64,000 nt of DNA from positions 113,241,789 through 113,305,788 of the forward strand of contig NC_050101.1 of the NCBI RefSeq assembly GCF_902167145.1, given 5' to 3'. Below, piece after piece: positions 4,101-41,064 of the stretch (position 1 is its first letter; the number at the start of each line of letters is the position of its first letter). A model generated the notes under the pieces. That model saw only the letters and a list, made by a program, of their open reading frames with translations, was not told the DNA's origin and ran no database searches. The stretch is from Zea mays (lineage: Eukaryota > Streptophyta > Magnoliopsida > Poales > Poaceae). A program made the translations under genes and the position numbers.

Positions 4101-4370
4101 ATTATATCCCATATTGCATAATTGACTAACAGATAACAAATTATATCCAAGAGACTCAACTAAAAACACATTAGATATAGAGTGCTCGGATGAAATAGCA
4201 ATTTTACCTAACCCTTTTACCTTGCCTTGATTCCCATCACCGAATATTATTGAATCTTGGGAATCCTTGTTTTTGACGTAGGAGGTGAACATCTTCTTCT
4301 CCCTCGTCATATGGTTTGTGCATCCGATGTCGATAATCCAGCTTGAACCCCCGGATGCATAAACCTGCAA
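1183..4370 (-). pseudogene. pol: Element 1 pol (protease-integrase-RT-RNase H), broken
   Basis: Copia-order polyprotein. The aspartic-protease site sits near 4326-4331 but reads D-I-G instead of the usual D-S-G. It is followed by the HHCC zinc finger and the DDE integrase core ([10 protein letters not shown] block), then RT with YVDD at 2125-2136, then RNase H with all four acidic positions visible, ending at 1183. An in-frame TAA at 3036-3038 splits the integrase from the RT part, and a 1-nt loss near 2329-2333 shifts the frame inside RT (overlapping open frames 2220-3008 and 1183-2298). The pol frame is +1 relative to gag. It is clearly a real pol gene but cannot make a full polyprotein; the protease substitution alone should block Gag maturation. 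Confidence 0.92.
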
Positions 4371-4377
4371 GGCAAAT

Positions 4378-6738
4378 TTAGGCTTGGGTCTTAGGTACCC
4401 AACTCTTGTTGGGTCCTACAAGGTTAGTCACAATTGTCTTAGGGACCCAAATGCAAGTTTTGTCTCCCTTGCATTTTGCCCCTAATTTTCTAGCAACTAT
4501 CTTCCTATCCTTTCTACAAATAGTAAAGGAAGCATTTAAAGCATGATATATTGTAGAAGGTTCATTAACTTTCCTAGGAACATTAACAACATTTCTCCTA
4601 GGCATATGAACAAAATACCTCCTAGACATATCTTTACCATGCATATAGGAAGAACTAGAAGCAAACATGGCACGAGAGTCAAAAGCATCATAAGCATTAC
4701 AACTCTTATAAGACTGTCTTCTATCATGGTACATAAAAGCATGGTTCTTTTTAGCACTACTAGCCATAGGGGCCTTCCTTTTCTCCTTGGCGGAGATGGG
4801 AGCCTTATGGCTTGTTAAGTTCTTGGCTTCCCTCTTGAAACCAAGTCCATCCTTAATTGAGGGGTGTCTACCAATCGTGTAGGCATCCCTTGCAAATTTT
4901 AACTTATCAAATTCGCTTTTGCTAGTCTTAAGTTGGGCATTAAGACTAGCTACTTCATCATTCAATTTAGAAATTGAAACTAGGTGTTCACTACAAGCAT
5001 CAACATTAAAATCTTTACACCTAGTGCAAACCATAACATGTTCTACACAAGATGTTGATTTATTAGCTATTTCTAACTTAGCATTCAAGTCATCGTTTAT
5101 GCTTTTTAAACTAGAAATAGAGTCATGGCATGTAGACAATTCACAAGAAAGCATTTCATTCCTCTTTATTTCTAAAGCAAGGGATTTTTGAGCTTCTACA
5201 AACTTATCATGTTCATCATATAAGAGATCCTCTTGCTTTTCTAGCAATCTATTCTTATCATTCAAAGCATCAATCAATTCATTTATTTTATCCACCTTGG
5301 TTCTATCTAGACCCTTGAATAAACATGAATAATCTATTTCATCATCATCACTAGACTCATCATCATCATAAGTACCAGTGCTACGAGCGCTTACCTTCTT
5401 TTCCCTTGCCATGAGGCAAGTGTGATGCTCGTTGGGGAAGAGGGATGACTTGTTGAAGGCAGTGGCGGCGAGTCCTTCGTTGTCGGAGTCGGACGACGAA
5501 CAATCCGAGTCCCACTCCTTGCCAAGATGTGCCTCGCCTTTTGCCTTCTTATAGTTCTTCTTCTTCTCCCTCTTGTTCCCTTGTTCCTGGTCACTATCAT
5601 TGTCGGGACAATTAGCAATAAAATGACCAACCTTACCACATTTGAAGCATGAGCGCTTCCCCTTTGTCTTGGTCTTGCTTGGCTGCCCCTTGTGACCCTT
5701 TAGCGCTGTCTTGAAGCACTTGATGATGAGGGCCATCTCTTCATCATTGAGCCCGACCGCCTCAACTTGCGCCTCCTTGCTCCTCGTTGCTTTGAGAGCA
5801 ATGGGTTGAGGCTCATGGATTGGACCGTTCAACGCGTTGTCGACATATCTCGCCTCCTTGATCATCATTCGCCCGCTTACGAATTTCCCAAGAACTTCTT
5901 CGGGCGACATCTTGGTGTACCTAGGATTTTCACGGATATTGTTCACCAAATGTGGATCAAGTACAGTGAAGGACCTTAGCATTAGACGAACGGCGTCGTG
6001 GTCCGTCCATCGTGTGCTTCCGTAGCTCCTTATCTTGTTGATGAGGGTCTTGAGCCGATTGTATGTTTGGGTTGGCTCCTCTCCCCTGATCATTGCGAAT
6101 CTTCCAAGCTCGCCCTCCACCAACTCCATTTTGGTGAGCAAGGTGACGTCGTTCCCCTCGTGTGAGATCCTGAGGGTGTCCCAGATCTGCTTGGCATTGT
6201 CCAAGCCGCTCACCTTATGATACTCGTCCCTGCACAAAGAGGCTAACAACACAGTAGTAGCTTGTGCATTTCTATGAATCTGTTCATTGATAAACATAGG
6301 ACTATCCGAGCTATCAAATTTCATTCCACTCTCCACAATCTCCCATATGCTCGGATGGAGAGAGAACAGGTGACTACGCATTTTGTGGCTCCAGAATCCG
6401 TAGTCCTCTCCATCAAAGTGAGGAGGTTTGCCAAGTGGAATGGAGAGCAAATGAGCATTTGTACTTTGCAGAATACGAGAATAGTCAAAAGAAAAGTTCG
6501 AATTAACCGGTTTCCTTCTCTCATAGTCGTTGTCGTCGTTGTCCTTTTGGGAAGAAGTGGACTCGTCGCTGTCGTCGTAGTAGACGATCTCCTTGATGCG
6601 TCTTGTCTTCTTCTTCTTCTTCCCATCCTTTCGTTTGTGGCCCGAGCCCGAGTCGGTAGGCTTGTCATCCTTCGGCTCGTTGACGAAGGACTCCTTCTCC
6701 TTATCATTGATCACGATTCCCTTCCCCTTAAGATCCAT
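4378..6738 (-). CDS. gag: Element 1 gag, uninterrupted
   Basis: An open frame of 786 codons beginning MDLKGKG, 50 nt after the 5' LTR. Visible parts in order: a Lys-rich, acidic N-terminus; the copia capsid region starting at LLSIPLGKPPHFDGEDY (about residue 98); a CCHC zinc knuckle CFKCGKVGHFIANC (about residue 363) that would bind genomic RNA; and a long Asn/Lys/Leu-rich coiled-coil C-terminal half, typical of the large Sirevirus Gag. It ends TAA just before pol. Gag forms the virus-like particle in the cytoplasm. No break is visible, unlike its pol partner, so it could still supply Gag to other copies if expressed. Confidence 0.92.
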   Translation of the reverse strand: MDLKGKGIVINDKEKESFVNEPKDDKPTDSGSGHKRKDGKKKKKTRRIKEIVYYDDSDESTSSQKDNDDNDYERRKPVNSNFSFDYSRILQSTNAHLLSIPLGKPPHFDGEDYGFWSHKMRSHLFSLHPSIWEIVESGMKFDSSDSPMFINEQIHRNAQATTVLLASLCRDEYHKVSGLDNAKQIWDTLRISHEGNDVTLLTKMELVEGELGRFAMIRGEEPTQTYNRLKTLINKIRSYGSTRWTDHDAVRLMLRSFTVLDPHLVNNIRENPRYTKMSPEEVLGKFVSGRMMIKEARYVDNALNGPIHEPQPIALKATRSKEAQVEAVGLNDEEMALIIKCFKTALKGHKGQPSKTKTKGKRSCFKCGKVGHFIANCPDNDSDQEQGNKREKKKNYKKAKGEAHLGKEWDSDCSSSDSDNEGLAATAFNKSSLFPNEHHTCLMAREKKVSARSTGTYDDDESSDDDEIDYSCLFKGLDRTKVDKINELIDALNDKNRLLEKQEDLLYDEHDKFVEAQKSLALEIKRNEMLSCELSTCHDSISSLKSINDDLNAKLEIANKSTSCVEHVMVCTRCKDFNVDACSEHLVSISKLNDEVASLNAQLKTSKSEFDKLKFARDAYTIGRHPSIKDGLGFKREAKNLTSHKAPISAKEKRKAPMASSAKKNHAFMYHDRRQSYKSCNAYDAFDSRAMFASSSSYMHGKDMSRRYFVHMPRRNVVNVPRKVNEPSTIYHALNASFTICRKDRKIVARKLGAKCKGDKTCIWVPKTIVTNLVGPNKSWVPKTQA

Positions 6739-6774
6739 CTCTTCGGGCGGTTAGTCCCTTTCTAGAAGAGAACG

Positions 6775-8564: not shown

Positions 8565-9268
8565 ATGGCGTCGAGCGCTGGCGGCGCGTCGTCGTCGCTG
8601 GTGAAGAACGAGCCGCACATTTATGCTGTCAAGATCTACCTCAAGAGCCTAAACATCCAAATGGAGAAATAGCTAGCCAAGACATGGAGAAGCACAAGGG
8701 GTCGTACAACCAGGGACTGGGGGAGGACTGGGAGATCGACCTCGCCAAGCTTCTATCAACCAAAAGAAAATCATGCTCCTCAATAGATAGCAGAAAATCC
8801 TATTTGAAATGAGTTTGTGAATAAGTGGTAAGGCATACCACTTTTAGTTTCTTTTCTTATTTGTCGTCATCTTAATTGACCATGGTAGATACAACATCGC
8901 TTCGCAGGCGCACGACGATCGTGGGCGATTCATATTGCGGGTGGTTCCAGACGTGGGCACCGGGCGTGAGATTTTTAATGCCTACTGCTTGCTCCACATG
9001 ATCATTTATCACTGGCTCCAGCATGTCATGCTGCTCATGCTGCTGCAAGGTAGGATTGTGCTCTGAACCTGTATTGATTTCACCTTTTGATGATTGTAGT
9101 TGTCCAAAACTGACTCAAGATCATCCGTCCTCTTCCCGTTTGATGGAATGCCTAACCCGTACCTTTTTTTATACCTAAAACTGATCGTGTAGGGTGGCAA
9201 ATAAGAAGCTTGTCCACGTGTTCATAGGTGAAGGACAAATTAATCTGAATGGAGCTCGATGGGTGCAG
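8565..9268 (+). pseudogene. Possible fragments of a low-copy host gene (unrecognised)
   Basis: Three exon-like pieces on the plus strand. A GC-rich ATG start at 8565 opens 35 codons (MASSAGGASSSLVKNEPHI...) and stops at 8672. A partly open stretch lies near 8960-9048 and runs into a GTAGG donor-like site. Then 9194-9268 is an open 25-codon segment (VANKKLVHVFIGEGQ...) framed by TGTAG before and CAG|GTAGTA after, as an exon would be. The pieces are not in one frame and I do not recognise the protein. It may be a degenerate gene or a captured fragment; it could also be chance. Confidence 0.3.
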
Positions 9269-9288
9269 GTAGTACCAATTGCACATCT

Positions 9289-9548
9289 GGTGACCCCCGC
9301 ATTAAATGCGCATGCGATACGGTCGGTGGTAAGGTGATTTGGCCGAGGTTGCTGTACGACAAAGTTTGCCCGAGCTTGGCCTCGGGCGAGCCGGGGGTGC
9401 GCCCATTGCCTGTGGAGGCCCTCGGGCGAGGCGTGAATCCGTCCGGGACTACTGTTCTTGCCCGAGGTCGGGCTCGGGCGAGACGAGATCGCGTCCCTTG
9501 GTAGATGAGGCTTTAACTTTGAGCTGTGCTTACCAGCCTTTACGGTCT
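9289..9548 (-). repeat. Element X 3' LTR, outer truncated fragment
   Basis: Aligns with 47939-48203 of the right LTR, with mostly C/T and G/A differences. The outer approximately 915 bp of the LTR is missing. The inner 71 bp continues at 21515-21585 beyond the Huck-like insertion. Confidence 0.9.
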
Positions 9549-10040
9549 TGTCGGGGACCATAATTAGGGGTACCCTCAAGGCGCCTAATTCTCAGCTGGT
9601 AACCCCCATCAGCATAAAGCTGCAAAGGCCTGATGGGCACGATTAAGTCAGGGATCAGTCCACACGAGTGACTCGATCACGCTTCACCCGAGCCTAGCCT
9701 CGGTCAAAGGCAGCCGACCTCGAGAGACTTCCGTCTCGCCCGAGGCCCCCTTTTTATGGCGGACACATCACCGGCTCGCCCAAGGCCTTGGCTTCGCTCA
9801 GAAGCAACCTTGACTAAATCACCACACCGACTGACCAAATTGCAGGGGCATTTAACGCAAAGGTGGCCTGACACCTCTATCCTGACACGCGCCCCCGGCA
9901 GAGCCGAAGTGACCGTCGTCACTCCACCGCCCCACTGGCCAGTCTGACAGAAGGACAGCGCCGCCTACGCCACTCCGACTGCAGTGCCACTCGACAGAGT
10001 GAGTCTGACAGGCAATCAGGCCTTGCCAAAGGCGCCACGG

Positions 10041-10382
10041 CGAACTCCGCTCCGCCCGACCCCAGGGCTCGGACTCGGGCTAAGACCCGGAAGACGGCGA
10101 ACTCCGCTCCGCCCGACCACAGGGCTCGGACTCGGGCTAAGACCCGGAAGACGGCGAACTCCGCTCCGCCCGACCCCAGGGCTCGGACTCGGGCTAAGAC
10201 ACGGAAGACGGCGAACTCCGCTCCGCCCGACCCCAGGGCTCGGACTCGGGCTAAGACCCGGAAGACGGCGAACTCCGCTCCGCCCGACCCCAGGGCTCGG
10301 ACTCGGGCTAAGACCCGGAAGACGGCGAACTCCGCTCCGCCCGACCCCAGGGCTCGGACTCGGGCTAAGACCCGGAAGACGA
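10041..10382 (+). repeat. 57-bp tandem repeat, six copies, in the Huck-like 5' LTR
   Basis: Units start CGAACTCCGC at 10041, 10098, 10155 and so on. Because 57 is divisible by 3, several frames on both strands stay open and translate to 19-residue repeats; none is a recognisable protein. The 3' LTR carries the same six copies. Confidence 0.95.
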
Positions 10383-10918
10383 CGAAACTCCGCCTCGCCC
10401 GACCCCAGGGCTCGGACTCCGCCCTGGCCTCGGCCGAACGACTTCCGCCTCGCCCGACCCCTTGGCTCGGGCTCGGCCACGGCAACAGAAGGCAGACTCA
10501 ACCTCGGCTTCGGAGGAACCCCCACGTCGCCCTGCCTAGGGCACAGACCGCCACGTCAACAGGAGGCGCCATCATCATCCCACCCCGAATCGACTCGGGT
10601 CACGGAGAACAAGACCGGCGTCTCATCCGGCCAGCTCCGCCAGAGAGGCAATGATGGCGCTCCACAAGCTCTATGACGACGGCGGCCCCCAGCTCTCTTA
10701 CGGAAGCAGGACAACGTCAGCAGGGACTCGACCGCTCCAACAGCTGTCCCTCCATCAGGCTCCGCCGCACCTCCGACAGCCACGACATCACGCCAGCAGG
10801 GTGCCCAGATCTCTCCGGCTGCCACATTGGCATGTACCTAGGGCGCTAGCTCTCCCTCCGCTAGACACGTAGCACTCTGCTACATCCCCATTGTACACCT
10901 GGATCCTCTCCTTACGAC

Positions 10919-10925
10919 TATAAAA
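10919..10925 (+). promoter_or_regulatory. TATA box of the Huck-like 5' LTR
   Basis: Reads CGACTATAAAAGGAAGG and should set the start of the genomic RNA about 30 bp downstream. The same site is at about 21204-21210 in the 3' LTR. Confidence 0.75.
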
Positions 10926-11230
10926 GGAAGGACCAGGGCCTTCTCAGAGAAGGTTGGCCGCGCGGGACCGAGGACGGGACAGGCGCTCTCTTGGGGCCGC
11001 TCGCTTCCCTCACCCGCGTGGACGCTTGTAACCCCCTACTGCAAGCGCACCTGACCTGGGCGCGGGACGAACACGAAGGCCGCGGGACTTCCACCTCTCT
11101 CACGCTAGGCTCCGGCCACCTCGCCTCTCCCCCCTTCGCGCTCGCCCACGCGCTCGACCCATCTGGGCTGGGGCACGCAGCACACTCACTCGTCGGCTTA
11201 GGGACCCCCCTGTCTCGAAACGTCGACAGT

Positions 11231-11248
11231 TGGCGCGCCAGGTAGGGG
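11231..11248 (+). other. Huck-like primer-binding site
   Basis: TGGCGCGCCAGGTAGGGG lies two bases after the LTR end. Element X has the same 18 bases at the same place (47004-47021, minus strand). I cannot name the tRNA with certainty. Confidence 0.7.
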
Positions 11249-11288
11249 CCTGCTGCGTGCTGACGAACAGCTCCCCATCAAGCTCCAG

Positions 11289-14200
11289 ATGGGCAGTCTC
11301 CAGCAACCTCTCCGGCCCGGGACGGTGCTTCGTTTCGGGACTCTCGAGTTCATGTCCTTCGACGGCAGCTACGACATGACACTTCTTCCACCGCCGCGCG
11401 ACTACGACAATGGCGGCCGACAACCCGCCCGCCGGCGGCGGAATCGACGACGTCTTCCCCGCGTGGCGGAAGAGCAATGTTCGGGCTCGCTCCGTTCTCT
11501 CCCCCGCCAACGGAGGAGGAGGCGGAGCCGTCAAGGCCAGACGGGAGGCCACGCTTCGTCGGCCGTCGAGCGAATCGACGCCCCCGACGCCCCGACGAAA
11601 GGCACGCCGGACGTCGACCTCGCGTTCGAGACGGAGGCGAGCGCCGTCCCCCCGTGGCACGCTGACCTTGAGCAAGAAGACGACGCCGGCGCGCTCGTGG
11701 AAAGCCTGCAGGACGTCGCCCTCGAACCAGAGATGATGGCGCAACCAGTCCCCGATGTGGCTACGTCGCTCCTCGTCGACCAAAAGGTAACGACTAACTC
11801 CCATCTTGCGTCATTTCGACTCGGCCTCAACCCGCCAAACGACCTCGTTTTGGCGGGCGCTCTCATTGAGGCGAGTGCAACCCCACTGAGGTTCTGTATG
11901 CGGTCGCCTTGGGACCGACTGACGGACGTCTCGACCTACGGGCCCTCTGGGTCCGAGGAAGATGACGATCCCAGCATCGGTTGGGATTTCTCCGGACTTG
12001 GCAACCCCAGTGCCGTGCGGGACTTCATGACCGCATGTGACTACTGTCTATCCGACTGTTCCGATTGAAGCCGCAGCCTTGGCGACGAGAGCTGCGGCCC
12101 AAGCCGCGAATGTTTCCACATCGAGCTAGGGGATCCCACCGAAGGCAACCATCTTGGCATGCCGGAGGATGGTGATCTCCCCAGGCCGGTGCCTCGCGCC
12201 GACATCCCACGGGAGCTAGCTGTGGTCCCCGCTCCGGTGGGGGGTTACGACCCACAACTCGAGCAAGTCCGCGAGGCGCAGGCCAGGCTCAACGAGGGAA
12301 CAGGAGCGCTTGAGCCGATCCGTCGGGACGTCGGACAGGCATGGGTGGGCCACCCCTGGCCGGAGAAATACGTCATCTGCCCCAAGGTCTCCAGCACCGC
12401 GTCGCCAACGATGTCAGGATCAGGCCGCCGCCCGCATCCAGCGGGGTCGGTCAGAACCTGGCAACCGCAGCGATGCTCATCCGCGCGATGCCGGAGCCGT
12501 CAACCACCGAGGGTCGGCGAATCCAGGGAGAACTCAAGAATCTCCTGGAAGGCGCTGCGGCCCGGCGGGCCGAGAGCACTGCATCCCGGAGGCAAGGATA
12601 TCCCTCGGAACCTCATGCCGCGACTTCCCGATTCATGCGGGAAGCCTCGGTCTACACCGGGCGCACGCGCAACACCGCGCCTGCGGCCCGGGCCACCTCG
12701 GCAACGAGCACCATCGACGCGACCGTCGGGCTCACCTCGACGAAAGGGTGCGCCGAGGCTACCACCCCAGGCGTGGGGGGCGCTACGACAGCGGGGAGGA
12801 TCGGAGTCCCTCGCCCGAACCACCCGGTCCGCAGGCCTTCAGTCGGGCCATCCGACGGGCGCCATTCCCGACCCGGTTCCGACCCCCGACTACTATCACA
12901 AAGTACTCGGGGGAAACGAGACCGGAACTGTGGCTCGCGGACTACCGCCTTGCCTGCCAACTGGGCGGAACGGACGACGACAACCTCATCATCCGCAACC
13001 TCCCCCTGTTCCTCTCCGACACTGCTCGCGCCTGGTTGGAGCACCTGCCTCCGGGGCAGATTTCCAACTGGGACGACTTGGTCCAAGCCTTCGCTGGCAA
13101 TTTCCAGGGCACATACGTGCGCCCCGGGAACTCCTGGGACCTTCGAAGCTGCCGGCAACAGCCGGGGGAGTCGCTCCGGGACTACATCCGGCGATTCTCG
13201 AAGCAGCGCACCGAGCTGCCCAACATCACCGACTCGGATGTCATCGGCGCGTTCCTCGCCGGCACCACTTGCCGTGACCTGGTGAGCAAGCTGGGTCGCA
13301 AAACCCCCACCAGGGCGAGCGAGCTGATGGACATCGCCACCAAGTTCGCCTCCGGCCAGGAGGCGGTCGAGGCTATCTTCCGAAAGGACAAGCAGCCCCA
13401 GGGACGCCCGTCGGAAGAAGCTCCCGAGGCGTCTGCTCCACGCGGCGCCAAGAAGAAAGGCAAGAAGAAGTCGCAATCGAAACGCGACGCCGCCGACGCG
13501 GACCTTGTCGCCGCCGCCGAGTATAAGAACCCTCGGAAGCCCCCCGGAGGTGCAAACCTCTTCGACAAGATGCTCAAGGAGCCGTACCCCTACCATCAGG
13601 GGCCCGTCAAGCACACCCTCGAGGAGTGCGTTATGCTTCGGCGTCATTTCCACAGGGCCGGGCCACCCGCCGAGGGTGGCAGGGCCCACGACGACGACAA
13701 GAACGAAGACCACCCAGCAGGGGGGTTCCCCGAGGTCCGCGACTGCTTCATGATCTATGGAGGGCATGCGGCGAATACCTCGGCTCGGCACCGCAAGCAA
13801 GAGCGCCGGGAGGTCTGCTCGGTGAAGGTGGCGGCGCCAGTCTACCTAGACTGGTCCGACAAGCCCATCACTTTCGACCGGGCCGACCACCCCGACCATG
13901 TGCCGAGCCCGGGGAAATACCCGCTCGTCGTCGACCCCATTGTCGGCGATGTCAGGCTCACCAAGGTCCTGATGGACGGGGGCAGCTGCCTCAACATCAT
14001 CTACGCCGAGACCCTCAAGCTTCTGCGCATCGATCCGTCCTCCGTCCGAGCAGGCGCTGCGCCCTTCCACGGGATCATCCCTGGGAAGCGCGTCCAGCCC
14101 CTCGGGCGACTCGACCTCCCAGTCTGCTTCGGGACACCCTCCAACTTCCGAAGGGAGACCCTGACGTTCGAAGTGGTCGGGTTCCGAGGAACCTACCACA

Positions 14201-14535
14201 CCGTGCTAGGGAGGCCATGCTACGCGAAGTTCATGGCCGTCCCCAACTACACCTACCTGAAGCTCAAGATGCCGGGCCCCAACGGGGTCATCACCGTCGG
14301 CCCCACGTACAAACACGCGTTCGAATGCGACGTGGAGTGCGTGGAGTACGCCGAGGCCCTCGCCGAGTCCGAGGCCCTCATCGCCGACCTGGAGAACCTC
14401 TCCAAGGAGGTCCCAGACGTGAAGCGCCATGCCAGCAACTTCGAGCCAGCGGAGACGGTCAAGGCCGTCCCCCTCGACCCCAGTGGCGACACCACCAAGC
14501 AGATCCGGATCGGTTCCGGGCTCGACCCCAAATAG
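11289..14535 (+). pseudogene. gag: Huck-like gag-protease, broken
   Basis: Begins MGSLQQPLRPGT 60 nt after the LTR; element X has the matching MDNLQQPLRPGT at 46963. The N-terminal part runs in one frame to a TGA at 12066-12068 and continues in that frame to about 12340. The MPEPSTTEGRR block then lies in another frame (from about 12341), and the capsid region (ELWLADYRLACQLGG, about 12930) in a third. From there a long open frame reaches 14535, covering capsid and the protease with DGGS near 13975-13986. So there is one stop and about two frameshifts in the first half and an intact second half. It would have supplied particle protein and maturation protease. The exact frameshift positions are inferred from comparison with X. 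Confidence 0.8.
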
Positions 14536-14690
14536 GAGGCAGTGCTCGTCGACTTTCTCTGCAAACGCCGACGTCTTTGCGCGGAGTCCCTCGGATGTGC
14601 CCGGCATACCGAGGGGTGTCGCCAAACACTCGCTGGATATTCGGGCCGGGGCCCGATCCGTCAGGCAGCCTCTGCGCCTCGATCATCAAG
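14536..14690 (+). pseudogene. Stub of reverse transcriptase and deletion junction
   Basis: After the TAG at 14533-14535 the sequence continues into the linker before RT (SPSDVPGIPRGVAKHSLDI, frame-shifted near 14560). It stops matching RT at about 14680, where sequence lying beyond integrase in element X (about 26985) follows directly. Compared with X, about 2.9 kb holding RT, both RNase H regions and integrase is gone. Confidence 0.85.
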
Positions 14691-15103
14691 GAAGGGTCGG
14701 CCTCGCCATGGCGGAGCCCGACCCTCCCTCGGGGGCTAAAAAGGGGGAACCCCTCTTCGTCAAGATCTTTTTAAATCAAAAAAAAGGGGACCTCTTGCGT
14801 TCTCCTAGTTACGTTCTCCTGGCTATGTCAGAAGCCGGGTCTCGAGGAGCGAATGCGGGTACATGAAAATGGCAAGGCCGATTGAGCCAAGGAATTCCCG
14901 TACCTCCGGGTTAGGGATACCTCACTCATCACCTGCCACGAAGGATGGCCCAACTCGAGAAGCCACTCTATTATTGACGAGGTAGGACGAACATGCAGAC
15001 GGAAAGAAAGGAGAGTACGACTCCATGCAAGAAAGACAAAAGTGTTCATGCCTCAGCGGCCATGGTGAGACACACGTTCAACAAGAAATTGTTCAAACGA
15101 GAA
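14691..15103. other. Non-coding stretch after the deletion, 3' side of the antisense gene
   Basis: 413 bp, similar to 26575-26985 of element X (CTCGGGGGCTA and AGGGGGGAACCCC-like blocks). It probably contains the 3' end of the antisense transcript. No gene is visible. Confidence 0.6.
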
Positions 15104-18100
15104 TCAGGCGCCGCCTTGGGAAGGAGCCGCGCCTTCATCTCCACCCCCGCCATCGGTGGGGTCCATCTCGGCCTCCGGTGACGTCGCAGGAGGAAGGACC
15201 TCCGCCTCAAAGGTGGTCGCCAGCACCGCGCTCGGGCCGGCGGCAACCGCGTCAAGCCGCTGCACCTCCGCCAGTGCAGCATCGTCTTCGTCAGGAAGAC
15301 AGTACCCCTCACTAACCCGCTCCAGATCCACAACGTAGTGAGAAGCGAGCACGGCGAAGGCCCGCCGGACGCCGTGATGTAGCGCTTCGCGGACTCTGCC
15401 GCGGGCGTGACCACCCAAGGCTCGAAGACGGCTCTGAGGGGAGCTTCCTGAAGGGACGTCAACGGAGCCGAGGGCACGATAAAAGTCCGAGACGGCCTCG
15501 GACATGGCCGCGAGGTTCGCCTCCCTCTGCTCGGCGGCTCCGGCAAGCGCCTCAGCAAGCGCCTTGGCGGACTCGTCAAGGGCGGACTCAAGCTCTGCAA
15601 GTAGCCAGGAGAAATACCTCAAGCACAAGCAAGGGAAACGGACAAGAAAAGGAACTAGGAAGGACCAAGACGTACCTCCGGCTCGGGCACGGTGCTCCGA
15701 GGCCGCGACTTGGGTCGCAGCTAAGTCAGCCGCGAGGGTCTCGGCTCGGCTTTCGGCCTCGGCGGCCCGGCCTTGAAGTCGGTTCCGTTCCTCGACGACC
15801 TGGGCGAGCTTCGATCGCTGCTGTTGCGCCTCCGCACGCGCCGCTGCCGCCTCGGCTCTCAGGTCGGCGCATAGCAGCTGGAGGTCCGCCACCTTGGCAT
15901 CTTGCTGAGAAAGGCGCGTGGTAGCCTCGGCGAGCGAAGACCTCAGGGATCGCAGCGAGCCCCAGACATCAACCTCACGGCGGATGAACAACGACTTAGC
16001 GGCGCTCCGGTCCGTCAGATCCTGGGAGAAGGAAACAGGGCGTCACAGCAAGTATCACAGAGAAGGAAAAAAGGTATGCCCGAAACCGCTACCTGGAGGA
16101 TTTTGGGGACGTCTCTGCAGAAAACCTCCAGCGACGACCGGAGCGACCCCACCGTCGCCTCTGCGCACTCGCGGAGCTCACCCCAGGACTGGTCTTCCTG
16201 CTCATCATCGAGAACGAAGACGGGGTCCGAGGCCTCGCGGGTCCGGAATCGGAGCAACGGGCGCCGGGCCTCGGAGTCCCGCCGCACAGCGATGAGGCTG
16301 TCGCCCGGCCGGATGGATTGCGCGACCGCGCCCACCTCTTCTGGGGTCTTGGGCACCGGCGCATCAGCCATCCTGGCGCTGGCGGCGGCTGGACACCCTT
16401 CGACAAGGACGGCGGCAACCTCGGCGGTGGCAGGCGCCGGCATGACCGGCACGACGGGCGAACTCAGAGCCGTGCGGGCGTCGGCCGTCTCCTCAACCAC
16501 GATCGCCGCCTCGGCGGAGGAGCCGGCCTCGGGAGCCCGCTCCTCCGAGATTGGCGACGCCCGAGCCCCCGATGTCGGAGTACCCTGCGAGAGGGTCGGC
16601 TGAATGGCGCTGGCCGCACAGTTCGACGCCGTCTTGAGGACCTTCCGGGGTGCCAGGTCGGTTTGGCCGTGACTTCGCTTGCTGGATAAAAAAGGAAGGG
16701 GATCACAACCGAAACATACGAATGGGAGGCCAAGACGAAGGCATTCCGAGGTACTCACCCACTCCGGGCCATGATCCACCGCGCCTGGGGAGAACCTTCT
16801 TGGATCCCGGCTCTCGAAACGGCCGCCGAGGTCCGCTTCGCCGGCGCTTGGGGCGCCTGGGGGACAGGTTCCCCGGGCACAGCAGCGATGACCTGAGGGT
16901 CACTCCCGTCCGCCACCAGCACAAGCGGCGGCCTCTGGGGAACAGACGCCTTGGTCTGGACCTCCGGAACTACTTCAGCTCCTCCGGCGGAGGGGTCAGG
17001 TGGCCTCTCGGTTCGCCCCCGCGCCTCGGGTCGGGAGCCCGACGCCCCGACTTCGGGGGCTGACGGAGTCGGTTCGCTCGGGGGCTGGCTCGACGGCTCT
17101 TGGCCACACCCCAGGCCGAGGCTGAGGCCGAGACGGGCGGCCATGCCGTCATCATCATCATCATCGTCGTCGTCATCGTCGTCGGGCGTCTCCGGCGACG
17201 GCTCCCTCGGGAGTCCGTCCCTCTCCTGCTGGCGGCGGCGCTTCTCCAAGGCGTCCCGAGCCCGCCTCCGCTCGCGGGCCTGGGCCTTCTCCGCGTCCTT
17301 CTTTTTCTTCTTCTCCTCCGCGGCAACCCGCCGCGCTGCACGGTCCACCGCGTCCTCCGGGACCCGTGGCAGGGAGGGTTTGTGACACCCCACATCCTAA
17401 AAGGAGGGGAGAAAGGAACCCGATCATAAGGACCCGGAGCAACCAGATATACGAAGAAGGGAGGAGCAAACGCTCACCAAAGTCACGCACCCCTGATCGG
17501 GGCGCATCCGAAGCTGGGAGTATGCGTGGGGGTCCGGCTTCCCCATCGCGGCCGACACCCGCCATTGGAGGGCGTCGAAAGGGAGAGGATCAGGGGACAT
17601 CCGTGAGCCCTCCCAGTCGGCTTCCGGGGTCATCTCCCAGAGCGACAGCCGCCGCTCCGCCAATGGGAGCACCCTCCGACGGTGAATGGCGGCGATCACT
17701 CCCGCAGCAGTAAGTCCCCCCTCCCGCAACTCCTTCAGGGCCTGGAGAAGGGGCTCGAGATTTTTCTGCCTCTCGTGCGGGGTCCCGTGGCGCCAGGCGT
17801 CGGTGGCAGCTGTAACTACTCGCTGGGAAAATGGTGGGAGCAACTCACCGTCGTTCCGGAGGTAGAACCACCGGCGCTGCCACCCCTTGTTCGAAGACGC
17901 GAGAATGGCAGGAATGTACTGCAACGCCCGCGACTGCCTCAACAAGAGAATGCAGCCGCCGGCCCGCACCGCTGCACGGATCCTCCTCTCCCCCGTCGAC
18001 AAGGCGAAAGGCTCGGCGAGGAAGAAGTAAGTCCACAAATCCCAATGGGGAGCAATCCCCAAGTACCCTTCGCATAACGCTACGAAAATAGCGGCCTGCG

Positions 18101-18395
18101 AGATGGAGTTGGGGGAGAGGTTGTGCAACTCCACCCCGTAGTGGAATAAGATGGCCCGCATAAAGCGGCCCGTCGGCGCACCAAATCCCCGCTCATGGAA
18201 GGAGACGAAGCTCACAACATACCCCGGCGGTGGGGACGGAGCGGCTCCGCCCACGGGGGGAATCCACTCTGGCCGCTGCTTGTCGGTGAGGGGGCGGAGC
18301 AAACCTTCGCCGACCAGCTCCTCCAGATCACTCGCCGTCACCGTGGAGAAGGGCCACGGATCGCGCGGGGGGATTATGGTCACTCGGTCCGCCAT
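15104..18395 (-). CDS. Antisense five-exon gene of the Huck-like element (993 aa)
   Basis: Read on the minus strand, opposite to its host element. Exons 18395-17478, 17396-16759, 16681-16093, 16021-15676, 15594-15104. Introns are 71-81 nt with GT-AG ends and phases 0, 2, 0, 1; the exons total 2,982 nt with no internal stop. Start MADRVTIIPPRDPWPF in a good context (GTGATGG). Residues about 1-300 resemble the plant 'putative gypsy type transposon' family (PPGYVVSF...ERGFG, GVELHNLSPNSI, PHWDLW). About 333-366 is Lys/Arg-rich, a possible nuclear signal; about 378-389 is an Asp run; about 735-825 is an Ala/Glu/Arg coiled coil. The C-terminus (SRLRALGGHARGRVREALHH) is the part best conserved with the X copy. 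Function unknown; antisense ORFs occur in other Tat elements. Exon calls are inferred from sites and from the X homologue. Confidence 0.82.
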
Positions 18396-18533
18396 CACCA
18401 AGATGGAGAAGATGGCGGCGCGGGGGGCAGGGAAGGCGGTTTCTCTCTCCTCCGACTAAAGTTTCCCGGGTGGCGAAAACCTGAAGGGAAAAGAAGGGAG
18501 CAGAGTGAAGAACCGTCACCGGGCCCCCTCTCA

Positions 18534-18541
18534 AGTATATG
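18534..18541 (-). promoter_or_regulatory. TATA-like box of the antisense gene (Huck-like)
   Basis: The minus strand reads CCTTCATATACTTGAG about 140-146 bp before the ATG at 18395. Element X has CCTTTATATACTCGG at the equivalent distance from its ATG. Confidence 0.5.
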
Positions 18542-18885
18542 AAGGCCAGGGCGAAACCGTTTCCAGCACGCCGCCTGGACCGGACGCAGGATTCGAAAAA
18601 CGCGAAGCGGCACAGCCGTTCCTCGAAACGGCTTGCACACGCGTAACGGCCGCCCCGCCGACCACTCGCCCCGTCGCATTAACTCCGCGGCAGGACACGC
18701 GGCGCTTCTGGCAGGAGGAGCGCGCGACGCTTCACCTTCGCCGTAATAACCGCTTCAGAAAAGGTACGCCACGTCGTCCGATTTCGTATCCTTTTCCGTT
18801 TTCCTCTTTCTCTATCTCTTGCAACAGGGACCGGGAAAGGGGGATACCCCGAAAGGGATCCTTCTCCGCGAAGGAACCGGGCTCC

Positions 18886-19105
18886 GAGCCCCCCATTACT
18901 GATCAGGGGTTCGAAGGCTAGCCCCCCGAGGGTTCAACAGTCGCCTCAGATCGCGTGGGCCCGACACCCACTACTGGTCAGGGGTTCGAAGGCCAGCCCC
19001 CCGAAGGGCTCCATGGCCGCCTCAGGCTACTCGGGCTCCGCGCCCATTACTGATCAGGGGTTCGAAGGCTGGCCCCCGAAGGGTTCACAGTCGCCTCAGA
19101 CACCG
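18886..19105. repeat. Three tandem copies of a roughly 75-bp unit
   Basis: ACTGATCAGGGGTTCGAAGG starts at 18898 and 19049, with ACTGGTCAGG... at 18973 (spacing 75 and 76). Element X has two copies in the same relative place (22351-22370 and 22425-22444, opposite strand). Confidence 0.75.
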
Positions 19106-19706
19106 AGCGAGGGATGACCAGGGGTACGTTCGATACATAACCGAGGCTCGGGCTGCGCTCCCGAGGTACCCTAGGACATTTCCGAGACCAGCGGGAACGA
19201 TCTTGTAACGGAATCCCATCGGAGGGAGGCATCGAGCCCTCGGACCCCGTCGCCAGGGGACCGGGTCCGGCAAATCACCCGCAGGTACTTTTGGGCGTGC
19301 CTCTGGGCCCCTAGCCGACCCCCAACGAACGGGGCACGGACGTCCACTCGGATTACCCGCTTGCAGCTCACCGGAGACACCATGTTCGGTGCCCATCGAG
19401 GGTAACATGGCGCACTCCCCCCCTCCTCCTTGCGGAAAGGCGACGTAGGGGCGTATGTAAAAAGCCGAGTCTGTCCCTGATCGTCCTCTCGCCCTGTGCA
19501 GAGGCTCGGGGGCTGCTCTCGCAAAAACCGGCTCCGGCCAAATCGTTGACAGCGTCAACATACCAGCCCGAGAGCTTGGGCCCCGACCGTACACCCGGGC
19601 TACGGCCAGTTCGCATGAGGGAACGACCAGACCAGCCGAAGCGTTAAGCAAAGTATTAAGACCTCGAAAGAGTGTAACCACTCCTCCGAGGCCTCGGGGG
19701 CTACAC

Positions 19707-19736
19707 CCGGCGGGTGCGCTCGCGCGCACCCACCGG
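19707..19736. other. Conserved hairpin near the Huck-like 3' LTR
   Basis: Arms GGGTGCGC (19712-19719) and GCGCACCC (19724-19731) around a 4-nt loop, extended past one mismatch by CCGG on both sides. In the antisense strand the loop is GCGA (GNRA type) and the mismatch becomes a U-G wobble, giving a 13-pair stem. It lies 97 nt from the LTR. Confidence 0.6.
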
Positions 19737-19817
19737 AACGAAATGCAACCGAGAAAGGCTGGTCCCCTTGCAAAAAAGTGCGACAAAAGCCTCCAAGCGA
19801 GTGCTAACACTCCCTTC

Positions 19818-19833
19818 GAGGCTCGGGGGCTAC
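19818..19833 (+). other. Polypurine tract of the Huck-like element
   Basis: GAGGCTCGGGGGCTAC abuts the 3' LTR. Element X has GAGGCTCAGGGGCTAC in the same position on its strand. Confidence 0.6.
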
Positions 19834-21514
19834 TGTCGGGGACCATAATTAGGGGTACCCTCAAGGCACCTAATTCTCAGCTGGTAACCCCCATCAGCAT
19901 AAAGCTGCAAAGGCCTGATGGGCACGATTAAGTCAGGGATCAGTCCACACGAGTGACTCGATCACGCTTCACCCGAGCCTAGCCTCGGTCAAAGGCAGCC
20001 GACCTCGAGAGACTTCCGTCTCGCCCGAGGCCCCCTTTTTATGGCGGACACATCACCGGCTCGCCCAAGGCCTTGGCTTCGCTCAGAAGCAACCTTGACT
20101 AAATCACCACACCGACTGACCAAATTGCAGGGGCATTTAACGCAAAGGTGGCCTGACACCTCTATCCTGACACGCGCCCCCGGCAGAGCCGAAGTGACCG
20201 CCGTCACTCCACCGCCCCGCTGGCCAGTCTGACAGAAGGACAGCGCCGCCTGCGCCACTCCGACTGCAGTGCCACTCGACAGAGTGAGTCTGACAGGCAA
20301 TCAGGCCTTGCCAAAGGCGCCACGGCGAACTCCGCTCCGCCCGACCCCAGGGCTCGGACTCGGGCTAAGACCCGGAAGACGGCGAACTCCGCTCCGCCCG
20401 ACCCCAGGGCTCGGACTCGGGCTAAGACCCGGAAGACGGCGAACTCCGCTCCGCCCGACCCCAGGGCTCGGACTCGGGCTAAGACCCGGAAGACGGCGAA
20501 CTCCGCTCCGCCCGACCCCAGGGCTCGGACTCGGGCTAAGACCCGGAAGACGGCGAACTCCGCTCCGCCCGACCCCAGGGCTCGGACTCGGGCTAAGACC
20601 CGGAAGACGGCGAACTCCGCTCCGCCCGACCCCAGGGCTCGGACTCGGGCTAAGACCCGGAAGACGACGAAACTCCGCCTCGCCTGACCCCAGGGCTCGG
20701 ACTCCGCCCTGGCCTCGGCCGAACGACTTCCGCCTCGCCCGACCCCTTGGCTCGGGCTCGGCCACGGCAACAGAAGGCAGACTCAACCTCGGCTTCGGAG
20801 GAACCCCCACGTCGCCCTGCCTAGGGCACAGACCGCCACGTCAACAGGAGGCGCCATCATCATCCCACCCCGAATCGACTCGGGTCACGGAGAACAAGAC
20901 CGGCGTCTCATCCGGCCAGCTCCGCCAGAGAGGCAATGATGGCGCTCCACAAGCTCTATGACGACGACGGCCCCCAGCTCTCTTACGGAAGCAGGACAAC
21001 GTCAGCAGGGACTCGACCGCTCCAACAGCTGTCCCTCCATCAGGCTCCGCCGCACCTCCGACAGCCACGACATCACGCCAGCAGGGTGCCCAGATCTCTC
21101 CGGCTGCCACATTGGCATGTACCTAGGGCGCTAGCTCTCCCTCCGCTAGACACGTAGCACTCTGCTACATCCCCATTGTACACCTGGATCCTCTCCTTAC
21201 GACTATAAAAGGAAGGACCAGGGCCTTCTCAGAGAAGGTTGGCCGCGCGGGACCGAGGACGGGACAGGCGCTCTCTTGGGGCCGCTCGCTTCCCTCACCC
21301 GCGTGGACGCTTGTAACCCCCCTACTGCAAGCGCACCTGACCTGGGCGCGGGACGAACACGAAGGCCGCGGGACTTCCACCTCTCTCACGCTCGGCTCCG
21401 GCCACCTCGCCTCTCCCCCCTTCGCGCTCGCCCACGCGCTCGACCCATCTGGGCTGGGGCACGCAGCACACTCGCTCGTCGGCTTAGGGACCCCCCTGTC
21501 TCGAAACGCCGACA
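19834..21514 (+). repeat. Huck-like 3' LTR (1,681 bp)
   Basis: Near-identical partner of 9549-11228. Six 57-bp repeats lie at 20326-20667. It is followed by the GGTCT target duplication at 21515-21519. Confidence 0.95.
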
Positions 21515-21585
21515 GGTCTGTTTTGAAGATGTTTTCCAGCCATGCTTAGGAGTATTGGAGGTACCCCTAATTATGGTACCCGACA
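21515..21585 (-). repeat. Element X 3' LTR, inner fragment
   Basis: On the minus strand it starts TGTCGGGTACCATAATTAGG at 21585, matching 48195-48265, and resumes at 9548 beyond the nested Huck-like element. Confidence 0.9.
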
Positions 21586-22941
21586 GTAGCCCCTGAGCCT
21601 CGAAGGGAGTGTAGGCACTCGCTTGGAGGTTCTGCCGGATTTTTTGCAAGGGGACTAGCCTTTCTCGGTTATATTTTATTCCGATGGGTGCGCGCGAGCG
21701 CACCCGTCGGGTGTAGCCCCCGAGGCCTCGGAGGAGTGGTTTGACTCCTCTGAGGTCTTGATTCTTTTTGTGATTCCTCGGTCGGCCTTGTTGTTCCCTC
21801 ATGCGGCCTGGCCGTAGCCCGGGTGCATGGTCAGACTCCAAGTTTTTAAGCTGGTTTGTCGACGTGGTCAACAATTTGGTTGTAGCCTGGTGCGAGAGCA
21901 GCCTCCGAGCCTTTGCACGGAGCGAGAGGACGATCGAGGACCGTCTCGGCTTTTTATTGTACGCCCCTTCATCGCCTTTCCGCAAGGAGGAGGGGGGAAC
22001 GTGCCATGTTACCCTCGGTGGGCGCTGAACATGGTGTTTCCAGTGAGTTGCTATTGGGTAATCCGAGCGGACACCCGAGCCTTGTTCAATAAGGGTCGGC
22101 TAGTGGCCCGGAGGCACGTTCCAAAAGTATCTGCGGGTGATTTGCTAGATCCGGACCCATTTGATAGGGTTCGAGGGCTCGGTGCCTCCCTTCGGTGGGA
22201 TTCCATTACAAACCGTTCCCGCTGGTCTCGGAAAAGTCCTAGGGTACCTCGGGAGCGTAGCCCAAGCCTCAGCCATGTAACGGACGTACCCAGGGTCATC
22301 CCTGACTCTACATGCTCTGGGTTGGCTGTCGAACCCTTCCGAGGGGCCAGCCTTCGACCCCCTGATCAGTAAAGGGCTCGGAGCCCGAGTGCTCTGGGCG
22401 GTCGCCGAACCCCGCAGGGCGCAACCTTCGAACCCCTGATCAGTAGGAGGGCTCGGGGCCCGTTTCCTTCGTTGAGAAGGATCCTTTCGAAATATCCCCT
22501 TTCCCGATCCCTATGGCAAGAGAGAGAGAGGAAAAAGGAAAAAGGATATAAATTTAAACAATGTGGCACACCTTTTTTGAGGCGGTCATCATGACGGAGG
22601 CAAAACGACGCCCGCTTCGCCTGCCAGAGGTGTCGCGTGCCCTGCCAGGGAGTTAATGCGACGGGACGAGCGACTCGCGGGGTATCTGTTGCGCGTGCGC
22701 GAGTCGTTCGAGGGATGGAAAAACCGCTTTGCCTTCGAGTTTGAAATTCTCGAAGGGTTCGGGCGAAGTTTTGGGTGTATCTCGCCCGGGCCTTTATATA
22801 CTCGGAAGTGGGGCCGGCAGTTGTTTCTTACCCTGCCATTTGTGCTTGCCTTCTGTCTTTGTTTTCGCAACTTGAGGGAGTAGACAGAGAAGAGAAAACC
22901 GCGCACCTCGTTCCCTCTGCTCCCACCGCTCCCGTTCGGCG
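21586..22941 (+). promoter_or_regulatory. Element X purine tract and upstream region of its antisense gene
   Basis: Starts with the complement of the polypurine tract (21586-21601). Next come the conserved hairpin (21681-21710), two copies of the TGATCAGT-containing repeat (22351-22444), a GA-rich run near 22519, and a TATA box TTTATATACT (22794-22800). The ATG follows at 22942. The order is the same as in the Huck-like element. No other gene is visible here. Confidence 0.6.
21681..21710. other. Conserved hairpin near the X 3' LTR
   Basis: Plus strand: CCGA, T, GGGTGCGC, loop GCGA, GCGCACCC, G, TCGG. It has the same loop and core stem as 19707-19736, but with an A-T pair where the Huck-like copy has G-C. 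It lies 95 nt from the LTR. Confidence 0.6.
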
Positions 22942-25900
22942 ATGGCTAATAAGGCGACCGTCATTCCGCCGCGGGACCCGTGGCCTTTCTCCACCGTCAC
23001 TGTGGAGGATTTGCAGGCCCTTGTTATCGAGGGTTTGCTCCATCTTCTCTCCGACGGGCCGCAGCCTGAGTGGTTGGCCCCTGGGAGCGAGGCCGACCCG
23101 ACTCCGCCACCGGGGTACGTGGTCAGTTTCACCCCCTTCCATGAGCGGGGGTTTGGGATGCCGGAGTGCCGCTTCATGCGGGCGCTCCCGCACTACTACG
23201 GGGTGGAGCTGCATAACTTCAACCCCAACTCCATCGCGCAGGTGGCTATTTTCGTGGCGGTTTGTGAGGGGGTTTCTGGGGATTGACCCCCACTGGGACC
23301 TATGGACCCATCTCTTCTCCGCAGAGTTCTTCGCCGCGTCGACAGATGTGAAGAAGGTCCGTATGGCGGTGCGGGCTGGCGGCTGCACCCTCCAGCTGAG
23401 GTCGGGGCGAGCACTGCAGTACATCCCTGCCTCCCTTGTGTCTTCGAACAAGGGGTGGCAGAACCAGTGGTTTTATCTCCAGAATGATGACGGGATGCTT
23501 CCGCCGTTTTCTCAACGAGTGGTGACCGCTGCCGGTGACAACTGGCGCTGGGGGGCCACACGCGAAAACCAGGAGAAGCTCCAGCCCATTCTCTGTGCTC
23601 TGCAGAAGTTACACACTGAGGGCCTTACCGCCACGGGGGTCGTCACCGCTATCCACCGCTGGAGGGTGCTCCCATTGGTAGAGTGGCGGTTGCGGCTTTC
23701 GGAGATGAAGCCGGGGGTTGATTTGGAGGGTTCACGGATGTCCTCGACCTCCCTCTCCACCGACGACCTCCTCAGACGGGTAGCGGGCACGGTAGGGAGG
23801 CTGGACGCTTGCATCCTTAGCCAACCCCCGATGCGTCCCGACCATGGGTATGTGTCCCTGGTAAGTGTCCAACCCTCCTTCTGTTTTGTGCCGTGTTTCT
23901 TACATCTTTAGTTCTTACTGTTGGGATTTTCGTTCGTCCCCAGGGGTTGAGGAATTTTAAACTCTCCCGGCCACCGGTCCCGGAGGACGCAGCGGGTCGG
24001 GCCGCGTGTAGGCTCGCCGCGGAGAAGGACAAGGAGAAGAAGGACGCGGAAAAGGCCTGAGCTCGCGAGAGGATGCGAGCTCGGGAAGCTTTGGAGAAAC
24101 GCCGTCGGAGGCAAGCAAGGGACGGGCTCCCGTTGGAGCCGTCGCCGGACACACCTGACGACGATGATGATGACGATGATGATGATGACGAAGATGATGA
24201 CATGGCGGCCCGGCTTGGCCTCAGTCCGGATCCGAGGCTAGGCCAGAGGTCGTCGAGCCAGCATCTAGGTGGGCTGGCGTCACCAACGTTCGGGGCCGGG
24301 ACGCCGGGGTCCTGGTCCGAGGAGCGGAGGCAGGCCGAGGGGGTACTTGACCCCTTGGCCGAGATAATTGGGGTGACTCTAGGAGGTCAGACCGAACCGC
24401 ATGTCCCCCAAGAGCAGGTGCCCGTGCCGGCCGTACGGGAAGTTGGTCCCCCGGCTGTCGCGATGTCGCCTGGGCAGGCCGCCGCCTCGGCGCCTCGGGC
24501 GTCCGAGGTGGAAGTGACGTCGAAGCCGGCCGCGGGACAACCCTCGGCAGCGCCTGCGGAGACTGGGGCCCGACGGGTCTCCCCTCAGGCACGATTGGCC
24601 TTGCCCCGGAGCGGGTAAGTATCTGAGGGTACTCATGTTTCAGTTATTTTGCTATGTGTCTTGAATTTACCCCTTCTCCTTTTCAGCAAGTGGAGGCAGG
24701 GCTCGGCTGGTCTGGCCCCCTCGAAGGCCCTTAAGACGGGGCCGGCCTCTGCAGCCGGGGTTGCGGTGCGCCACGCTGGTTGGTTGGCCTCCGCGCAAGG
24801 CGCCCTCCGGCGGGGGGCCCAGGCGGCACAGGCTGCCATGGGGCAAGCCTCCCAGGTTGAGCCCCCTATTGGAGCGGCCGTCATACCGAGGGAGGTCGTT
24901 GACACAGCCGCGGCCCCGAGCCCGCCTGTCTTGTTGTCGGCGCCGGCATCGATTCCTGCCGGGACCGTCGCTAATTCGCCCGCAGAGCCGCCCGTCACCA
25001 CCGATGTTGAGACGGCTGAGGCGCCTCCGCCCTTGGTCATCCCCGATCTCCCCGTTTTCGACCACGAGGAGGGGGCGGCCGTCGTCGCCAAAGTCGGTGA
25101 GCGGAGGCCTGTCACCTTGGCCGAGGAGAGGCCCGAGACGTCGACTACGGTGGTACCCGATGCACCGACTGTAGGGGGACCCGACGCCTCGGCCGAGGGG
25201 CGCGCAGAACCATGGCCCGTCTTGGGGAGCAGCGGCCTTATCCCCACGCAGCTCAATCCCAATGAGTGGTGTGGGCAGCCGCTCCTGTTCTGGAGCCGCG
25301 ACACCTTGGAGCCTCTCCTCTCCCTCAACGATGAGTTGGAGGAGCAGTTTTGGGATAATTTCCGTGAATATACCGAGGCGACGATGAGGTCACTTTGGTC
25401 GACCATGGAAATTCTTTCCAAGGATGTTTCCAGGGTCTTCCAGGTAAGGTTTTAGACGTACACCTCACGTGATCAGGGCATTCTTTGTGATATCATGTTT
25501 TCCTCTCTCAGGAGCTTGCGGACGTGAGCATCGCTAAGTCGTTGTTCATCTGCCGCGAAAGCGACGTTTGGGAGTCGCTGCGGTCCCAGTGGGTCGCGCT
25601 TACTGAGGCCAATGAGCGCCTTGCCCAACGGAGCGCCGAGGTGGCGGACCTTTGGCTGCTCTGTGATGAGCTGAAGTCGGAGGCAGCGGTGGCGCGAACA
25701 GAGGCGGCGTCGGTACGAATGGAGGCTTCGTCGGCCCGGGAGCAGGTGGCTTTCCAGGCCGAGGAGATGCAGCAGCGACAGCTGGAGCTTGGCCAGGTCA
25801 CCAGCGAGCGGGACCAATTCTGGAGCCAAGCTGCCGAGGCCATGAGCCGGGCTGAGGCCCTTAGAGGACAACTGGCTGAGGTTACGGAGCGGCTAGCCGA

Positions 25901-26574
25901 GGCGACCGCTCGGGCCGGGACCCTTGCGGAGGGCCTGGTCGTGGCCGTCGGGTCTGCCCAGTCCGCCCAAGCCATGGCCTCACAGCAGCATGCCCGTGCT
26001 GAAGGTTTGTTTTGTCTACTTTGTGATTTTGTTTTTGTCTTCATTTTTCTCCTCGTGTCTGAAGAATATTGTCCGGCTGTCTTCCGGGTTCGAGACGGCT
26101 CTTAACGAGTCTGTCAAGAACTGCAAAGCGCTTGCCCAAGCGACTGAGCATAAGGAGGCCGACCGTGTGGCCATGTCCGAGGCCATCTCGGCCTTCTGCC
26201 GGACCTTTGGCCTCAGCGACGTTCCCTCGGGCAGCTCCCCCCAGAGTCGCCTGCGGGCCTTGGGCGGCCACGTGCACAGCAGACTCCGCGGGGCGCTGCA
26301 CCATGGCGTTAGGCGAGCCTTCACCGTCCTCGCTTCCCACTATGACGTGGATTTGGAGTGGGTCAGCGAGGGCTATTGCTTACCCGATGAAGAGGAGGTC
26401 GCCCTATCCGAGGTCCAAAGGCTTGACACGGCTGCCGAGGGCCCAGGCGCGGCATTGGCTTCCTTCTTTGAGGTGGAGATCCTTCCGCCTGTGTCGCCGT
26501 CCGAGGCCGGTCCAGATTCTGCCGCGGGCGGGAACGATGCCGAGGGTGCTGCTCCTTCCCCTGCCGACACCTGA
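22942..26574 (+). pseudogene. Antisense five-exon gene of element X, decayed
   Basis: Homologue of the gene at 15104-18395, here on the plus strand because X lies on the minus strand. Exons 22942-23860, 23944-24614, 24687-25443, 25512-26004, 26087-26574; introns of 83, 72, 68 and 82 nt at the same positions and phases as in the Huck-like copy. It starts MANKATVIPPRDPWPF. Lesions: an extra G in the run 23268-23272 shifts exon 1, a TGA at 24058-24060 interrupts exon 2, and the last acceptor dinucleotide (26085-26086) is CG rather than AG. First-exon and C-terminal blocks (SGSSPQSRLRALGGH, SEGYCLPDE) are conserved while the middle diverges except for the Asp-rich run near 24158-24203. It is upstream-controlled by its own TATA box. 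Function unknown. Confidence 0.82.
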
Positions 26575-27044
26575 GCCTGTAGGGAACAATTTGTTTTAAG
26601 TATGTGTATGTTTCTTGCGGCTGCTGAAGCCTAAACATTTTTAATGTCAGAGTATAAAGCTGCATTTTCTTTCCTCTTGTTTCGAGCGTTAGGACTTGTT
26701 CGGTAGCAAAATCACTTATCCGAGCATGAGTTACTTTTCGCGGAAGGTAATGAGTGAGGTATCCGTATCCCGGAGGCGTAGGAGTCCCTCGGCTCGGTCG
26801 GCCTTGTCGTTCAAGGTCTCTCTAGCTCGTTTTTAGGATTCCGTTATCGATATAGTCGAAAGGCACGAAAGTCGTTTTGGTAGAAAACTTTTTCGAGGAA
26901 AATTTTGACGCAGAGGGGGTTCCCCCCTTCTAGCCCCCGAGGAAGGTTTGGTTTTTGCTGAGGCAAGGCCGATCCTCCCTTGACGGTTACACTTTTTATT
27001 TATACATGTAAAGGGATTGAGATACATGAACGACTTGAAACACT
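26575..27044. other. Spacer between the X antisense gene and integrase end
   Basis: 470 bp separating two convergent genes (antisense gene from the left, pol from the right). No open frame of note. It should contain the 3' ends of both coding units. Confidence 0.6.
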
Positions 27045-41062: not shown

Positions 41063-41064
41063 GC

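Follow-up and report, generated by a model that had tools for sequence, protein, structure and literature searches.

A predicted five-exon TRP28 gene lies antisense to a young, pol-deleted LTR retrotransposon of maize

Results

A five-exon gene on the minus strand

The window analysed here is a 64,000-nt stretch of Zea mays contig NC_050101.1 (forward-strand positions 113,241,789 to 113,305,788), and it contains, on its minus strand, a gene that is predicted to comprise five exons. Re-joining these exons gave a coding sequence of 2,982 nt, encoding 993 residues and a stop with no internal stops, and reproduced exactly the GT-AG borders, intron phases (0, 2, 0 and 1), coding length and residue count claimed in an earlier note on this DNA. 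Exon 1 (17478-18395) begins with ATGGC and runs for 306 codons, which include a TRP28 domain, while exon 2 (16759-17396) encodes a K/R-rich stretch followed by twelve aspartates. By eye, these two features are a putative nuclear signal and acidic tract. Exon 3 (16093-16681), the least conserved of the five, encodes a basic motif and then a Pro/Ala/Glu-rich linker; exon 4 (15676-16021) contributes 115 residues of coiled coil; and exon 5 (15104-15594) encodes the end of the coil and a conserved C-terminal region before terminating in TGA. The four introns, all GT-AG, measure 81 nt (intron 1, 17397-17477), 77 nt (intron 2, 16682-16758), 71 nt (intron 3, 16022-16092) and 81 nt (intron 4, 15595-15675). 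Intron 1 is 41% T and holds an in-frame TGA, and intron 4 is 44% T and open in frame. A TATA-like block, located by eye from the alignment with a second copy of the gene, lies on the same strand at 18534-18541, ~146 nt upstream of the ATG; its counterpart in the second copy is at about 22795, ~147 nt upstream of the ATG there, and the region upstream of the ATG is 70% identical between the two copies.

The host element is young and has lost nearly all of pol

The gene is carried, on the opposite strand, by an LTR retrotransposon of 11,967 bp (element A, 9549-21515). For Huck, the family named in the earlier note, published full lengths average 13,407 bp, and one listing has 11,312. Both LTRs of A (9549-11229 and 19834-21515, plus strand) contain 57-bp tandem repeats (9923-10500 and 20208-20785), and the LTR pair, the TG...CA ends and a perfect 5-bp target-site duplication (GGTCT at 9544-9548 and 21516-21520) identify A as a complete insertion. 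Aligned over 1,682 columns, the LTRs differ by 11 substitutions and a single gap (99.3% identity), which corresponds to an age of about 0.25 My at a rate of 1.3e-8 per site per year. No Rfam match was found in 9000-27000.

Element A lies within an LTR of an older neighbour, element B, in the opposite orientation, and 263 bp of that LTR match the other LTR of B at 97%. The longest sense frame of A (12220-14535, plus strand) encodes the gag capsid (PF03732) and, judged by position, part of the protease; gag is broken upstream of this frame, where comparison with B shows an in-frame stop and two frameshifts of one base each, although the gag frame of B itself contains seven stops in the piece compared. 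An RT-start remnant (14555-14695, plus strand) carries a two-base frameshift. Of pol, queries from B recovered no more in A than this brief beginning of RT and a scrap of the post-integrase region, and the RNase H and integrase frames of B found no counterpart in A at E 0.01. The earlier claims that pol had been lost and that gag was broken are thus both borne out.

A stop between the protease and the RT start is present in both elements, at 14533-14535 (plus strand) in A, where it ends the longest sense frame, and near 30028 in B. It looks ancestral, as would fit a separate pol ORF or read-through, and because it is common to both elements it was left out of the count of damage in A. Autonomy calls for an intact gag, RT, RNase H and integrase. 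Since its gag is broken, its RT is reduced to a remnant and neither RNase H nor integrase was found, A is non-autonomous, and this jumping gene of a grass most likely cannot copy itself without help.

A second, decaying copy in the neighbouring element

Element B retains pol frames (rve, RVT_3) and, opposite to them, a homologous antisense gene (22942-26574, plus strand). Its exons, read from the alignment, are 22942-23860, 23944-24614, 24687-25443, 25512-26004 and 26087-26574, and its introns measure 83, 72, 68 and 82 nt. This copy is ~30% diverged from that of A and is no longer intact: exon 1 is frameshifted, exon 2 contains a TGA and intron 4 has lost its acceptor AG, a state of decay expected of an older copy.

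The open chain exceeds chance, and comparison supports its borders

To gauge how readily such a chain could arise, the longest ORF obtainable in 14770-19833 with at most four GT-AG introns of 60-120 nt was compared with that in 60 dinucleotide shuffles. In all 60 the longest chain fell short of 2,982 nt (mean 1,486, maximum 2,067), and the sense strand yielded 2,352 nt. Under a stricter splice-site rule, which the whole five-exon model does not pass, the antisense strand gave 2,223 nt with two introns, compared with a maximum of 1,425 in the 60 shuffles and 588 on the sense strand. When any GT-AG was allowed, the antisense strand also yielded a chain of 3,300 nt, and the open intron 4 creates a 312-aa frame (15104-16042, minus strand) that runs through exons 4 and 5. 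Because of this alternative chain and the open intron, openness alone leaves the exon borders unfixed. The borders modelled here are instead supported by alignment with the second copy.

In that alignment, 15 of the 16 letters of the splice dinucleotides, and hence seven of the eight splice sites, are kept between A and B, the lost site being in the decaying gene, whereas the remainder of the T-rich introns can barely be aligned. Intron cores are 46-53% identical between the copies, compared with 57-71% for the exons, and indels are a multiple of three in eight of nine exonic cases but in only one of six intronic ones. T content is 39-44% in the introns and 11-21% in the exons; T-rich introns are usual in plants. 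Furthermore, the exon 4 frame of A contains no methionine, either within the exon or further upstream before a stop, yet it has been under selection (see below), so exon 4 is most likely joined to an upstream exon. Collectively, these comparisons give strong signs that the antisense gene is spliced.

The coding sequence has been under purifying selection

Between A and B, dN/dS of the antisense frame is 0.364 (95% CI 0.309-0.435; 990 codons), an estimate that derives from two DNA copies, one of them decaying, at a high dS (0.9). In the same DNA, the two other antisense frames and the three sense frames gave dN/dS of 0.60-0.95 and contain 9-36 stops per copy. A per-exon comparison had been proposed in the earlier note, and for this pair omega is below 1 in each exon: 0.29 (95% CI 0.20-0.41) for exon 1, 0.43 (0.29-0.62) for exon 2, 0.65 (0.45-0.92) for exon 3, 0.32 (0.18-0.55) for exon 4 and 0.21 (0.13-0.32) for exon 5. 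These values support past purifying selection on every exon, although the constraint on exon 3 is weak. The sense gag/protease part gave 0.158 over 452 codons, and by this measure the antisense gene as a whole is under looser constraint than gag, with exon 5 coming near it.

Predicted architecture of the protein

The only Pfam family above cutoff in the protein is PF04195, at residues 60-128 (68.8 bits against a cutoff of 26.2; E 4.7e-19), which agrees with the suggestion that exon 1 resembles the 'putative gypsy type transposon' family; the C-terminal region encoded by exon 5 matched no Pfam family above cutoff. A coiled coil had likewise been proposed, and its signature is present. Residues 712-877 are free of proline, a run matched in none of 5,000 shuffles, and hydrophobic periodicity over residues 716-870 has a power of 2.36 at 3.5 residues, compared with at most 0.41 at nine other periods. 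We also considered heptad spacing as evidence and rejected it. The two indels that separate the copies in exon 4 measure 21 and 28 residues, each divisible by seven, but an indel of a single residue occurs in exon 5, and the distances seen in distant models do not agree modulo seven.

A sequence search of the PDB identified no solved relative for the profile at 0.01, and one match at 0.33 for exon 1. Structure prediction gave a pLDDT of 36 for exon 1, and a pLDDT of 65.5 with a pTM of 0.29 for exon 5. Fold-based assignment of function was set aside, given that fold matches to models of such low confidence would be meaningless.

Relatives of the protein in other grasses

Protein searches scored the candidates that shared the most words with the query, 7,990 for the full protein and 7,987 for an alignment of eight. 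There were at least 28 matches among the best 7,990 and at least 71 among the best 7,987, while a query with residues 860-975 found no match in the protein search. The 71 relatives consist of eight annotated proteins, from Digitaria exilis, Miscanthus floridulus and Panicum virgatum, one ENA record and 62 JGI records. Viral contigs and prokaryote genome contigs gave pattern matches, but no relative was confirmed among them.

Seven of the annotated proteins, 848-1,196 aa long, can be aligned along the chain, though their best local alignments cover only 23-80% of the query. For P0022, P0025 and P0027 the alignment runs directly from exon 1 into exon 2, with no intron 1 segment between them. When four proteins were scanned for TRP28, the domain was confirmed in P0022, P0024 and P0028 and fell below the cutoff in P0023. 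Several annotated relatives skip parts of exon 1, and the annotated grass relatives may be pipeline predictions. The ENA record (P0068) joins a TRP28 domain to LptF/LptG and is perhaps chimeric or misassembled.

The JGI relatives show a different pattern at intron 1. In 48 of them, a set in which the length limits of the protein search favour copies with an open intron 1, the intron 1 stretch consists of 26 open codons with a mean protein identity of 0.78. Among the 29 with a complete exon 1, the identity of this stretch is 0.79, within the range of 0.64-0.91 found for exon windows. Intron 1 may thus be translated, or its retention optional, in some relatives. The junction pattern could be placed on both sides in 49 of the 71 proteins, leaving 22 unplaced. 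Processed copies lacking intron 1 were considered and rejected, as 48 of the 49 placed proteins show a 30-residue spacing that includes intron 1; the remaining one is a Miscanthus gene model without the intron 1 stretch.

Discussion

Relation to known antisense genes

The gene encodes PF04195 and lies antisense to gag-pol between pol and the 3' LTR, the two properties that define an antisense TRP28 gene. To place it among known systems, we drew on passages from PMC11963269, PMC7264820, PMC8547701, PMC11728184, PMC6317226, PMC7730604, PMC2774510 and PMC3091746. According to a survey of Retand elements (Vicient 2025, PMC11963269), antisense ORFs with TRP28 occur in 97% of clusters, including clusters without gag or without RNase H and integrase, and as in A they lie antisense between pol and the 3' LTR. 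The survey lists these ORFs, predicted with ORF Finder, as uninterrupted, counts TRP28 and Smc-type antisense ORFs separately and nowhere uses the word 'intron'; the parts that appear there as separate ORFs are here joined by one predicted five-exon gene.

Going by their descriptions in the passages drawn on from a 2020 review (PMC7264820), the antisense ORFs of RIRE2, Wallabi, Gran3, Retand (ORF4) and PvRetro13 share the position and orientation of the maize gene; Retand ORF4 has TRP28 and PvRetro13 ORF2 an SMC domain. Gene23 of the maize element Grande (Gomez-Orte 2013, as cited in PMC7264820) is similar, again by description, in its antisense transcription, own promoter and nuclear protein. 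HTLV-1 HBZ and similar retroviral antisense genes, as described in PMC11963269, are accessory genes for a nuclear protein and offer an analogy only. Ogre of pea and Medicago, described in PMC6317226, is a plant gypsy element with an intron that is spliced, but this intron belongs to the sense strand and separates gag-protease from RT. The 2020 review (PMC7264820) holds that antisense and spliced transcripts are possible and worth looking for. None of the matches listed, which comprised titles and abstract openings, mostly from outside the subscription literature, and are not proof of absence, describes a spliced multi-exon antisense gene of the TRP28 type. Antisense genes of the TRP28 kind are already known, and what is new is the predicted spliced structure, by which a single protein would unite the TRP28 domain, a basic/acidic linker, a coiled coil and a C-terminal region that has no name.

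A spliced accessory gene and its alternatives

Based on the data presented above, the gene is probably a spliced, five-exon version of the accessory gene that gypsy LTR retrotransposons of the Retand/Tat type carry in antisense. Its transcript would start at an antisense promoter located between the gene and the 3' LTR, and the host spliceosome would join the five exons. The genomic RNA would carry the reverse complement of the introns, which cannot be spliced, and we propose, following the sound reasoning of the earlier note, that the introns persist through retrotransposition for this reason. The product would combine the N-terminal TRP28 domain, the basic/acidic linker of nuclear type, the long coiled coil and the conserved C-terminal region, and most likely works in oligomeric form within the nucleus, its target being the nucleic acid of the element itself, at transcription or integration. 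A broader proposal is that the antisense ORFs of grass Retand-type elements (TRP28, Smc-like coil and others) all belong, as exons, to one ancient spliced gene whose product is a nuclear coiled-coil protein, and that pol-less elements keep this gene as it favours the copy that encodes it; we regard this extension as doubtful.

An alternative is that the region holds separate antisense ORFs, with exon 1, alone or together with intron 1 and exon 2, encoding a TRP28 protein and the coil region forming a second ORF. The separate counts in the 2025 survey (PMC11963269) fit this reading, as do the open intron 4 of A and the JGI ORFs, which read through intron 1 and, in most of the aligned cases, end at the exon 2 donor. 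However, a stop in frame interrupts intron 1 of A, exon 4 of A has no start codon and yet is selected, the second copy has introns of similar length with conserved splice dinucleotides, and the grass gene models hold the parts in one chain, and we consider separate ORFs unlikely. The conserved product might instead be an antisense RNA, convergent transcription yielding double-stranded RNA that regulates the element, a role raised as possible for such genes in PMC7264820. An RNA role by itself would not be expected to constrain the codons of every exon or to keep indels in frame, which makes this account quite improbable as a replacement for a protein, although RNA and protein roles can coexist. 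Takeover of the gene by the host is more improbable still: nothing specific favours it, and we rejected domestication on the grounds that the gene sits inside a young, complete LTR pair with a target-site duplication and is conserved between elements rather than at a locus.

Whether the copy in A is still of use to its element is a separate matter, and here we lean slightly towards a passive relic, a reading that concerns this copy alone and is compatible with the spliced accessory gene preferred above. The gene would have served an autonomous ancestor, would be open only since A is young, and would now be idle, as the decay of the neighbour's copy might also suggest. At an assumed indel rate, the chance that the antisense gene would have escaped any lesion since insertion without selection is ~0.33, so the intactness of the gene in A says little, given that youth alone could account for it. 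By our own count, gag and the RT remnant of A have four lesions where the antisense gene has none, a contrast that is not significant (the chance of all four falling on the sense side is 0.081). Against a relic, four sense lesions are rather a lot for an insertion of this age (chance 0.038, with the assumed indel rate and our lesion count), and the decay of gag therefore probably began before the last jump, at a time when the antisense gene remained open. The earlier note had proposed that selection may keep the gene. Past selection between elements is supported, while for selection in the pol-less lineage of A itself the lesion counts lend weak support.

If the gene is indeed spliced, then across a highly abundant class of plant elements such genes have been recorded as broken ORFs or as several distinct ones, and the complete proteins are still to be studied. 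A spliced antisense gene would also illustrate a way in which introns can persist in a retroelement.

Other elements in the window

A further gypsy element (31405-45087) is inserted inside B, with terminal repeats of ~4 kb that are 99.5% identical. Its minus-strand frames at 35581-37422 and 37426-40161 give family matches to gag, protease, RT, RNase H, integrase and a chromodomain. Copia-type frames (gag, integrase) lie at 57312-63294 on the plus strand, with RT in 60055-63294, and at 3039-6750 on the minus strand, and stretches of the two regions match each other at 74-83%.
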